A stretch of DNA of 64,000 nucleotides from Nocardia vinacea (lineage in GTDB: Bacteria; Actinomycetota; Actinomycetes; Mycobacteriales; Mycobacteriaceae), in assembly GCF_035920345.1 (NCBI RefSeq), contig NZ_CP109149.1, forward strand, positions 7,130,001 through 7,194,000. Reading direction: 5' to 3'. The notes under the pieces were generated by a model. The model ran no database searches. It had not been told where the DNA came from and was given only the letters and a program-made list of their open reading frames with translations. Positions 11,676 to 60,292 of this stretch are shown here, in pieces (position 1 is the stretch's first letter; the number at the start of each line of letters is the position of its first letter). The position numbers were made by a program, and so were the translations under genes.

Positions 11676-11726
11676 GTGAGCGAGCTTCAGCGAGTGAACC
11701 ATCGACACAGCGCGCAGTCGCGAGCG
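11676..11726 (+). repeat. Partial copy of the coupling repeat (plus strand)
   Basis: Starts GTGAGCGAGCTTCAGCGAGT and matches the first 50 or so bases of the 80-bp repeat upstream of dciA, in the opposite orientation. Translated, it begins MSELQRVNHRHSAQSRA, against [17 protein letters not shown] in the dciA-proximal copy; the EPSAGEAQA end is missing, the frame instead running to a stop at 11769-11771. It is a degenerate member with no gene start at its end. Confidence 0.65.
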
Positions 11727-11782
11727 GGTGACCAGTGCGTAGTTCAGCCTACGTGGCGGACTCGCTCATGACGGCCGCGCGG

Positions 11783-11820: not shown

Positions 11821-12381
11821 TTATCCGTAGGTGTCCCGTGGACCTCGGCCTTTGATGTGCCGCTCACCCTTGCGCCAGCTCGGCGCCGCCGGACCGGTGA
11901 TCTTCAACGATGTGACCACGCCCTGTCCCACCGCCGCATTGATCTTCGCCAGGATCTGGCCCTGCAGCATGCGCAGCTGGGTGGCCCACGCCGTGGATTC
12001 GGCGGCGATGCTCAGCACGCCGTCCTTCAATGTCATCGGGGTCGCATGGGAGGCGATGTCCTCGCCGACCACACCGGCCCAGCGGCCGAAGACCATGCCC
12101 TCGGCGACCTTGGTCGACCAGCCCCGATTCTTCGCGATGGCGCCGGTCAGGCTCGAAAGCAGTTGCGGGTCACGGTCATCGGGCCGCGCGCCGGACCAGC
12201 CGGTGCGACGGCGGGCTCCGGTGCGCAGCCGGCGCGGCGATGCCCGGCCCTGCCCGACTGATTTACCACTCGCCTTGGCGGCAGCTCGCGCCTCCTCCAG
12301 CGCACGCCGCGCCAGATCGATACCGCGCAACTCCGGTTCCGGCTCGGATGCGGAAGCATTCGACGCTGTCGGATCGCTCAC
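11821..12381 (-). CDS. dciA: DciA/DUF721 replicative-helicase-associated protein
   Basis: The 186-residue protein has a disordered basic N-terminus and a C-terminal DUF721/DciA fold (from about residue 85: [20 protein letters not shown], then [17 protein letters not shown]). DciA proteins help load or operate the replicative helicase DnaB in bacteria lacking DnaC. The position between recF and gyrB matches Rv0004 of Mycobacterium. The GTG start at 12381 overlaps by four bases (GTGA) the stop of a 27-codon repeat-encoded ORF, suggesting that translation is coupled to that element; no independent Shine-Dalgarno is evident. Confidence 0.9.
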
Positions 12382-12461
12382 GCCTGCGCCTCGCCGGCGC
12401 TCGGCTCCGTCGTGCGCGATTGCGCACTGTGTTGATGGTTCACTCGCTGGCGCTCACTCAC
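12378..12461 (-). repeat. Coupling repeat copy A with 27-codon ORF feeding dciA
   Basis: An 84-base ORF on minus, GTG at 12461 to TGA at 12378, encoding 27 residues that begin [10 protein letters not shown] and end EPSAGEAQA. The last four bases (GTGA) are also the dciA start. It is one of two tandem units about 80 bases long. Another unit upstream of trxB encodes a peptide of exactly the same length with the same ends. Confidence 0.8.
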
Positions 12462-12540
12462 GCCTGCGCCTCGCCGGCGCTCGGCTCCGTCGTGCGCGAT
12501 TGCGCGCTCTGTTGGTGGTTCACTCGCTCCGCTCGCTCAC
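12459..12540 (-). repeat. Coupling repeat copy B (tandem, frameshifted)
   Basis: The second tandem unit begins GTGAGCGAGCGGAGCGAGTG at 12540 and is over 90 percent identical by eye to copy A. A one-base deletion near its start makes the GTG frame stop after six codons, but the frame giving [18 protein letters not shown] continues to a TGA that overlaps the GTG of copy A. The units therefore chain through shared GTGA stop/start codons. Confidence 0.75.
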
Positions 12541-15582: not shown

Positions 15583-15923
15583 CTCGAGGATGAACGGATG
15601 GGGGTTGTGGACGTTGCGGGTTTGTCCCCCATTCATCCTCGAGCACTCCTCGAGTTGTTCCACCAGATTCACCAGGTTGTTCACACGTGTGCACCAAATC
15701 GTGGACAACTCGAGGAATCCTCGAGGACTCCACATGGACTCCTCGAGGATTCCCCAAGCCGCTGACCGAGCCCGTCGCTGGTCAGGGCCTGTGTGTGGAT
15801 AAGGCTGTGGACTCTGTTGATTCCACCCCTGTTAGCAACGGATCCACGATCATCCGCACAGCCTGTGGACGAACCGGTGCACAACTCGGAGTTTCCTCGA
15901 GGACTCCACAAGAATTCCTCGAG
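15583..15923. repeat. CTCGAG palindrome array in oriC
   Basis: Eight copies of CTCGAG at 15583, 15638, 15649, 15709, 15720, 15742, 15896 and 15918. Most are extended to TCCTCGAGGA, and three continue into a DnaA-box-like TCCACA (TCCTCGAGGACTCCACA near 15719 and 15895, TCCTCGAGGAGTCCACA near 15917). Confidence 0.85.
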
Positions 15924-15936
15924 GAGTCCACAGGGC

Positions 15937-25721: not shown

Positions 25722-25739
25722 GACTCCGCATTCAGCAAT

Positions 25740-27559: not shown

Positions 27560-28546
27560 TCAGTTGGCGGGCACGGCAACTGAGTTGCCGGCGTGATCCA
27601 GGGTGTTCGAGGTGATGTCACCCTGTTCGGCCAGCCAGCGCTCGGCGTCGATCGCGGCGCGGCAGCCGGTCCCCGCGGCGGTAATGGCCTGGCGGTAGGT
27701 GTGGTCGACCAGATCGCCCGCGGCGAAGACACCGGGCACCGCGGTAGCGGTCGACGGATGCAGCACCTGCACGTAGCCCTCGTCGTCCAGTTCCACCTGA
27801 TCCTTGACCAGCTCGCTGCGCGGATCGTGACCGATCGCCACGAACAGGCCGGTCGCGGCCAGTTCGGAGGTCTCGCCGGTGCGGGTATCGCGCAGTGTCA
27901 GGCTGGTCACGCTGGTATCACCGTTGACCGCGGTGACCTCGGCGTTGAGCACGAACTTGATCTTCTCGTTGGCCTTGGCGCGCTCCAGCATGATGCGCGA
28001 GGCGCGGAATTCCTCGCGGCGGTGCACGATGGTCACGGTGCTGGCGAACTTGGTGAGGAAGGTCGCTTCCTCCATCGCCGAGTCGCCACCGCCGACCACG
28101 ACGATGTCTTGGCCCTTGAAGAAGAAGCCGTCGCAGGTGGCGCAGGCGCTGACACCGCGGCCGAGCAGCTTCTGCTCACCGGGGACGTTCAGATAGCGCG
28201 CGGCCGAGCCCATCGCGAGGATTACGGCGTAGGCCTGGTACGTCTCATCGCCGACGGTGACCGTCTTGATCGGGCCGGTCAGGTCGATGGCGTCCACATC
28301 CTCGGTCCGGATATCGGCGCCGAATCGCTTGGCCTGTTCGCGCATCTCCTCCATCAGATCCGGGCCCATGATGCCGGCGCGGAAACCGGGGAAGTTTTCG
28401 ACCTCGGTGGTGGTCATCAGTGCGCCGCCGAACTGGGTGCCCTCGAACAGCAGGGGCTGGAGTTCGGCGCGGGCTGCGTAGACGGCGGCGGTATAGCCGG
28501 CGGGTCCGGAGCCGACGATGATCAAGTCGCGAACTGCGTTGCTCAT
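27560..28546 (-). CDS. trxB: Thioredoxin reductase
   Basis: A 328-residue flavoprotein. The FAD motif is [19 protein letters not shown], the redox-active site is ACATCDGFF, the NADPH motif is [12 protein letters not shown], and the C-terminal FAD-binding segment includes [11 protein letters not shown]. It passes electrons from NADPH to thioredoxin. The ATG at 28546 overlaps by four bases (ATGA) the stop of a 27-codon repeat-encoded ORF; there is a possible AGGCGGAGG site within the repeat end itself. Confidence 0.97.
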
Positions 28547-28626
28547 GCCTCCGCCTCGCTGGCGCTCGGCTCCACCATGACCAACAGGTTGGCTGTGTTG
28601 ATTGTTCGCTCGCTGCGCTCGCTCAC
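28543..28626 (-). repeat. Coupling repeat with 27-codon ORF feeding trxB
   Basis: GTG at 28626 to TGA at 28543, 27 codons, beginning [12 protein letters not shown] and ending EPSASEAEA. The stop overlaps the trxB start as ATGA. Length and both ends match the copy upstream of dciA, while the middle differs, including ANLLVMV. Confidence 0.8.
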
Positions 28627-28736
28627 GGGTGACCCTTCCGAGGGAGATTCGTTAGACGTGTCGGTCAACAACAGGGTAAACGGTGTTGTTCCCGACGTGA
28701 TGTGGGACAACCGCACGACGTGACGTCGCCCACTCG

Positions 28737-60045: not shown

Positions 60046-60065
60046 GCTGAACGTCTCGCGCGCTA

Positions 60066-60292
60066 CCCGAAACTCTTGCCGGTCGTGGGGTACGAGGCTA
60101 CCTTCGTCGCGGGCCGACGGTCGGGCTGGTGGCTGGATGCTGGGCGTACCCGACGAGTTACCCATGTGCTGGTCCGCCTCCCCGAAACTTTTGCCGGTCG
60201 TGGGGTGCGGTGCGAGTTTCGTCGCGGGCCGACGGTGGTGTCGGTGACTGGATGCTGGGCGTACCCGACGAGTTACCCATGTTCTCCCGAAA
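60066..60292. repeat. 115-bp tandem repeat (about two copies)
   Basis: CCCGAAACTCTTGCCGGTCG at 60066 recurs at 60181 as CCCGAAACTTTTGCCGGTCG; CTGGATGCTGGGCGTACCCG and CGAGTTACCCATGT repeat with the same 115-base period. A third CCCGAAA begins at 60286. Confidence 0.88.

Follow-up and report, generated by a model that had tools for sequence, protein, structure and literature searches.

A large family of mobile repeats in Nocardia that sits before host start codons and probably hands the ribosome on to the gene behind

A repeat element of about 80 bp, present twice before dciA and once before trxB in a 64-kb window of a Nocardia genome (the window being the whole stretch of DNA that was analysed), belongs to a real and large family. 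The element is mobile, leaves RTGA at both of its ends (R = A or G) and sits before a start codon that existed before it arrived. It is also recent, differing between close species. The likely explanation is a non-autonomous mobile leader cistron, which would pass the ribosome to the host gene through an overlap of its own TGA with the host RTG. The features of the window on which the analysis is based are the following.

12378..12461, minus strand: proximal unit before dciA, 84 nt, intact 27-codon frame plus TGA, GTGA at both ends (98.4 bits)
12458..12540, minus strand: distal tandem unit before dciA, 83 nt, frame broken (93.5 bits)
12378..12381, minus strand: GTGA in which the leader-frame stop overlaps the dciA GTG start (from the sequence)
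12389..12392, minus strand: GAGG, internal Shine-Dalgarno-like site 7 nt before the dciA start (from the sequence)
12379..12414, minus strand: predicted 3' hairpin with GAGG and the dciA GTG (RNAalifold on the alignment, pair counts)
11821..12381, minus strand: host gene dciA, DUF721 family by NCBIfam (NF002871, over the curated cut-off); the DUF721 protein is taken here to be DciA
28543..28626, minus strand: single unit before trxB, 84 nt, intact 27-codon frame plus TGA, 5' GTGA and 3' ATGA (89.0 bits)
28543..28546, minus strand: ATGA in which the leader-frame stop overlaps the trxB ATG start (from the sequence)
28554..28557, minus strand: GAGG, 7 nt before the trxB start (from the sequence)
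28544..28579, minus strand: predicted 3' hairpin with GAGG and the trxB ATG (RNAalifold on an alignment including the trxB unit)
28634..28639, minus strand: GGAAGG, Shine-Dalgarno-like site of the host, now before the element (from the sequence and relatives)
27560..28546, minus strand: host gene trxB, thioredoxin-disulfide reductase (TIGR01292, over the curated cut-off)
11676..11767, plus strand: degenerate fourth copy between dciA and what is presumably gyrB, 3' end lost, without a final RTGA (49.3 bits)

The proximal dciA unit and the trxB unit agree with their description in the earlier note, each having 27 codons and a TGA that overlaps the host start, as GTGA and ATGA respectively. The distal dciA unit had been described as an open frame ending in the GTGA that opens the proximal one. 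The shared GTGA (12458-12461, the last of the distal and the first of the proximal unit) stands, and the open frame does not: this is a broken copy, in which the frame from the first GTG stops after 6 codons (VSERSE*). An Rfam scan of the window returned two tRNAs and no other family.

The existence of a repeat family, as proposed from these units, holds far beyond chance. A BLAST search with the 163-bp stretch gave at least 44 matches in the source genome (40 candidates scored). A covariance model built from 30 units (R1) found at least 140 copies in its 10.36 Mb at E<=0.01 (150 of 17,100 candidates scored), which form at least 120 loci: 104 single, 13 double, 2 triple and 1 quadruple, hence 16 in tandem. 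Copies span RTGA to RTGA, most often over 84 or 81 nt. At E<=0.001, matches occur in 138 of the 148 genomes sampled from the genus. The wider searches used strict filters that lose weak matches; under these, 25 of 301 genomes match in the family-wide sample (E<=1e-4, in 3 of 31 genera) and 6 of 396 in the phylum-wide sample. Three of the phylum-wide matches lie outside the family, one of them (L352) an open 81-nt frame with RTGA ends and the other two without a final RTGA. Scanning of named genomes with a pattern gave at least 120 stretches; many Nocardia species and four Kribbella species are among the matches listed, and the four Kribbella copies listed are open, 84 nt long and placed at gene starts. 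Among the 80 loci listed, 82 of 89 pattern matches are open frames, and 61 of the 81 that do not lie at a locus edge continue into a long coding frame. Plasmids and phages searched with single units gave no match, and both were set aside as the source of the element. In a literature search, no Nocardia counterpart of start-codon repeats appeared among the papers listed.

The reading frame of the element is kept open to a degree that depends on where the copy lies. The lengths of the 140 matches leave remainders of 0, 1 and 2 on division by three in 105, 20 and 15 cases, and 93 of the 140 copies are open frames with start and stop. Including the stop, these measure 84 nt (38), 81 nt (34), 72 nt (9) or 75 nt (6), more rarely 87 (2), 78 (2), 69 (1) or 93 nt (1). 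The 27 codons that had been taken as a fixed length are thus one of several. Conservation of the frame at starts, also claimed, was upheld: the 3'-most unit is open at 75 of 88 start loci (broken at the other 13) compared with 7 of 32 others (p 1.6e-10), and at 75 of 83 against 7 of 14 when only units with undamaged ends are considered (p 0.001). GC-rich DNA has few stop codons, and small frames can arise in it by chance; as an account of this family, chance frames are refuted by the excess of lengths divisible by three and by the dependence of openness on context, and retain hardly any probability. The middle of the element is read in one of two frames, which defines two classes of unit (SERQRVNH.. 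and SERSERTIN..); they arise through a 1-nt indel close to the 5' end that is compensated further on. A T that makes a stop in one class occurs only in broken copies of that class (6 of 6). Of the 18 copies in the other class with the same T, 13 are open; this count leaves out 43 of the 140 units, which do not fit the pattern. It is therefore openness, more than peptide sequence, that is maintained.

The position of the element relative to host genes was assessed with flanking coding frames called from codon usage. Among the 87 of 120 loci with a callable downstream frame, 80 are in frame with the last RTG, 4 and 2 are in the other forward frames and 1 is reverse. Copies therefore end preferentially at gene starts and not at random; random placement, together with a frame that is not conserved, was the outcome that the earlier note had named as fatal to its coupling idea. 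The last RTG was judged to be the start of a host gene at 88 of the 120 loci, leaving 32 others. The 88 include ten uncalled loci, dciA among them, that were added by eye, and locus 4725714, counted by rule although its RTG frame has only 3 codons and is probably a miscall; two frame-F0 loci without a final RTGA were grouped with the non-start loci. Upstream, 62 loci are callable. The preceding gene ends in frame on the element's first TGA in 46 of them; 9 and 5 lie in other frames and 2 are reverse. NCBIfam places Der, TrpB, RibH, FolK and MsrA over cut-off among the host proteins, and HemA, SdhA and MtrB were matched only as N-terminal pieces, below whole-protein cut-offs.

Comparison with relatives provides the direct evidence for mobility. 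At trxB, the source genome and its close relative G009 carry the element, and the other 15 of 15 readable loci of the genus are empty (23 of 30 loci printed, 19 from the genus, with the clipped L126 and L129 excluded; the four loci from outside the genus do not align). In the empty sites the start codon stands directly behind the ribosome-binding region, and GGAAGG is found there in 13 of the 15 relatives. A further 29 loci, picked by hand from the 88 start loci, were checked in G009, where 14 are empty and 15 filled (9 of the filled sites by script, 6 by eye). At loci 9917599, 8417869, 9739236, 6558781 and 8267346, G009 reads flank-RTGA-flank and the source genome flank-RTGA-element-RTGA-flank; locus 9910448 is less clean, the relative having GTGG. 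Since the empty sites have no element, a single RTGA and the same flanks, the element must be mobile and the host start older. Consequently, the proposal that the element creates gene starts has to be dropped, because the start codon is already there in the relatives without it. At locus 4377606, before a gene taken to be pgsA-like, both genomes keep an apparent older, decayed copy and the source genome has a newer one beside it, which looks like repeated landing at one start.

RTGA at both ends of the element and one RTGA at empty sites may reflect a target-site duplication, with a 3' copy that deviates at 25723 and 590344. At these two loci the 3' RTGA differs from the RTGA of the relatives and fits the hairpin of the element, which suggests that it comes with the element. 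At trxB and ribH the relatives have ATGA and the source genome has GTGA at the 5' end and ATGA at the 3' end, which suggests a 3' RTGA derived from the target. At position 5 of the element, agreement with the downstream flank is seen in 70 of 84 cases compared with 60.3 when shuffled, and at position 6 in 56 compared with 53.7; the excess at position 5 is perhaps explained by a GTGACC subfamily. No terminal inverted repeats are apparent by eye in the element, and no mobilising enzyme was found. A Y1 transposase (IS200/IS605 or RAYT) acting on RTGA would make the element REP-like, and the hairpins at both ends, the fixed four-letter site and two Y1 transposase genes in the source genome are compatible with this. 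REP elements likewise have terminal hairpins and a short fixed site; a coding leader, in contrast, is not part of REPs. The presence of Y1 does not follow the element, being confined to 28 of 148 genomes of the genus and missing from the copy-rich G005, G008, G017 and G022, and this phyletic mismatch makes a Y1 mobiliser very unlikely.

The preference for starts can also be read as the result of blind insertion at any RTGA followed by selection, with the open frame as a passive licence and the hairpins serving single-stranded-DNA transposition. This reading is possible, if rather doubtful. It gains from the non-start loci: of the 32, 13 are empty in G009, 10 are filled (both flanks found apart) and 9 could not be resolved, and with 13 copies absent from G009 some recent insertions are therefore not at starts. 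Of the copies that G009 lacks, 11 of 14 at starts have an open frame, compared with 4 of 13 elsewhere (p 0.02), and hairpins that include RTGA at both ends also fit. On the other side stands the supply of targets. In a count that the crude gene caller makes only a rough expectation, since it overstates intergenic space, 163 RTGA of the window are wholly intergenic, 10 lie at gene starts and 9 at gene ends; even so, 88 of 120 loci are at starts. It is also not obvious what a GAGG placed 7 nt before the start would contribute to transposition. In addition, start loci and resolved other loci are absent from G009 in similar proportions (14 of 29 and 13 of 23; p 0.59), and slow loss of non-start copies is therefore no explanation. 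The alike mix of ages speaks for some targeting of starts, and the difference in open frames speaks for selection.

Both ends of the element are predicted to fold. In the RNAalifold consensus, the RT of the first RTGA opens a 5' hairpin, and the last RTG closes a 3' hairpin. Pairing holds in 95.1% of alignment cells compared with 90.3% in shuffled alignments and 14.9-41.7% in slid versions, and two-sided changes in hairpin pairs number 35 compared with 13.8 when shuffled, a count inflated by shared descent. Further pair types do not exceed the shuffles (19 compared with 18.0; 172 of 500), and single-sequence folds of 7 units are unremarkable (z +0.30 to -2.91). The start-codon base and its partner form T-A in 46, C-G in 42 and T-G in 1 of 97 anchored units of the source genome, with 8 unpaired; in 89 units of other genomes the numbers are 46, 37, 2 and 4. 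In 87 of 88 start loci a GAGG lies 7 nt ahead of the start codon, inside the covarying 3' hairpin, and here too shared descent inflates the conservation. A covarying hairpin around a ribosome-binding site and start, preceding many genes, is what would be expected if the genes behind were regulated by a riboswitch-like or attenuator RNA whose open frame is incidental. Such a role is improbable in view of the presence or absence of the element between close relatives at 14 of 29 loci, the diversity of the target genes, the frame-restoring indels and a window without any Rfam family except the two tRNAs.

The leader-cistron explanation accommodates these features as a sequence of steps. The element of about 80 bp inserts at an RTGA whose RTG is the start of a host gene and, as the empty sites show, comes to have RTGA on both sides. 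Its first RTG then stands where the host start was, behind the host Shine-Dalgarno site, an apparent leaderless promoter or a stop/start overlap, and would make use of these signals. Translation would run through a leader frame, in most cases 26 or 27 codons long, with a TGA that overlaps the host RTG. The 3' hairpin, holding GAGG and the host RTG, may mask the start; a ribosome on the leader would open it, stop at the TGA and re-initiate on the overlapping RTG. Judged from the layout of frame, hairpin and start, the ribosome is thus probably handed on to the host gene. Such a handover would keep the host gene expressed, so that the element could be tolerated before genes such as trxB, dciA, der, hemA, sdhA, ribH, trpB, folK and mtrB. 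Before the element, a plain Shine-Dalgarno site is present at 16 of the 53 start loci that have no upstream stop, a TANNNT box (apparently a leaderless start) at 13, and neither at 24; a Shine-Dalgarno site precedes the element in 18 of the 35 start loci with an upstream stop, and 120 control windows gave 16 Shine-Dalgarno sites and 2 TANNNT boxes. Counting against the leader-cistron explanation are the 32 of 120 loci not at starts, the 13 of 88 broken leader frames and the 24 of 53 loci with neither signal, together with the unremarkable folds of single sequences and the count of further pair types.

The closest known parallel is the mycobacterial MIRU. According to the available part of a 2025 review (PMC12548453), MIRUs insert at start codons with an ORF coupled to the gene at a -4 spacing, and they "appear to be mobile". 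The Nocardia element is likewise a small interspersed repeat (tandem at 16 of 120 loci), inserted at start codons with a -4 overlap (80 of 87 in frame; open in 75 of 88) and mobile (empty sites with one RTGA in relatives). By analogy, it appears to work by the principle stated for MIRUs in that part of the review, and to this extent the suggestion of a Nocardia counterpart of MIRU is supported; in-register homology to tuberculosis-type MIRUs was not found. Six windows of G902, a genome inferred to belong to the tuberculosis complex, contain two 53-bp arrays that are bounded by RTGA and have frames of 18 codons; one of the two continues into a long frame. A model broader than R1 (R2) scores 18-19 bits on these arrays in the six windows of this one inferred genome and is out of register there, and therefore does not demonstrate a common origin with the Nocardia family. 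A third 18-bit match in G902 (L438) was rejected as an in-register element, being the end of a coding frame that overlaps der.

On the description of MIRU in PMC12548453 and PMC4213456, MIRU and the Nocardia element are alike in being small, interspersed and often tandem, with a stop that overlaps the host start. Subtracting the 4 shared letters from the Nocardia 81-nt class gives 77, the period in bp reported for MIRU. The sequences differ, as far as the 53-bp arrays of the one inferred genome are concerned, and what sets the Nocardia element apart from MIRU is a hairpin at each end, the 3' one containing GAGG and the start, and mobility seen directly in empty sites. The enterobacterial RU-1, RU-2 and RU-3 (PMC2759123, in the part available) are also small mobile intergenic repeats with open frames; unlike the Nocardia element, these frames are fused into genes, and that part of the source does not describe a start-codon handover.

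The start-overlapping architecture is also found in Kribbella and in the genera g25 and g41. In g25 (genome G171, with 11 of its 12 matches read), 9 of 11 copies are open frames, one of them without a start codon; these copies have the same 5' half as the Nocardia family and a different 3' stem. In genome G200, 2 of 3 copies are open frames. With R2, 41 of 198 g41 genomes match at E<=0.01, and this family, found in register with a best E of 1e-9, consists mostly of 69-nt units with RTGA ends and a tandem period of 65. At 18 of 20 loci read the frame is open, and 17 of those enter frames of more than 100 codons. The g41 repeats share RTGA ends, open frames and the start-codon pairing of the 3' hairpin with the Nocardia element, and differ in a shorter middle and another stem (ATGCGG with CCGCAT, ACGCGG with CCGCGT). 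The PE family marks mycobacteria, and PE-family matches in 381 of 396 genomes are the reason for taking g41 as Mycobacterium, in a test whose control also matched in E. coli. Tentatively, the families may be joined in a mobile leader-cistron superfamily of Nocardia, Kribbella, Mycobacterium and further Actinobacteria, with the classical MIRUs as one branch. Its members would find starts by a non-Y1 route, carry their own hairpin-masked ribosome-binding site and let the host gene be read only via the leader, as start-codon parasites locked before important genes.

Insertions at a start codon are usually badly placed, and this family lives there by means of its own reading frame and ribosome-binding site. 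The idea behind MIRUs is carried outside the mycobacteria by this family. For the study of termination-reinitiation, a single genome supplies roughly a hundred natural coupling cassettes, and for some of them the corresponding empty site is at hand. The family also raises the question of how so small an element locates start codons. For annotation, the warning is that leaders of this kind often interrupt the starts and 5' regions of Nocardia genes.

Several further observations were made along the way. The genes behind the element at 9728529 in the source genome and at L380 in G200 look like orthologs (VSSIQVADQTFVAAP..) in two genera, and their starts are perhaps occupied by independent insertions. 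Similar host genes in two distant genera also follow the element at L252 (Kribbella) and L375 (G171), with SADDLEKYET.. and SAEDLEKYET.. respectively. A second dispersed motif (about GGAGGCAGCTTGCGTAACCATGTAGGG) lies just downstream of the elements at 6464290, 7230300 and 9049495 (L030, L023 and L099); it has no Rfam match at E<=0.1 at these three loci and matches many contigs of G009. In G918 of genus g41, one 99-nt unit (L425) has an internal duplication and a frame that is still open. In the window itself, two direct repeats of 108 nt, 87% alike and 115 apart, lie at 60063-60285. Two 69-nt repeats at 15688-15932, 78% alike and rich in TCCTCGAGGA, stand beside a region that the names we assume for its genes mark as the presumed origin.
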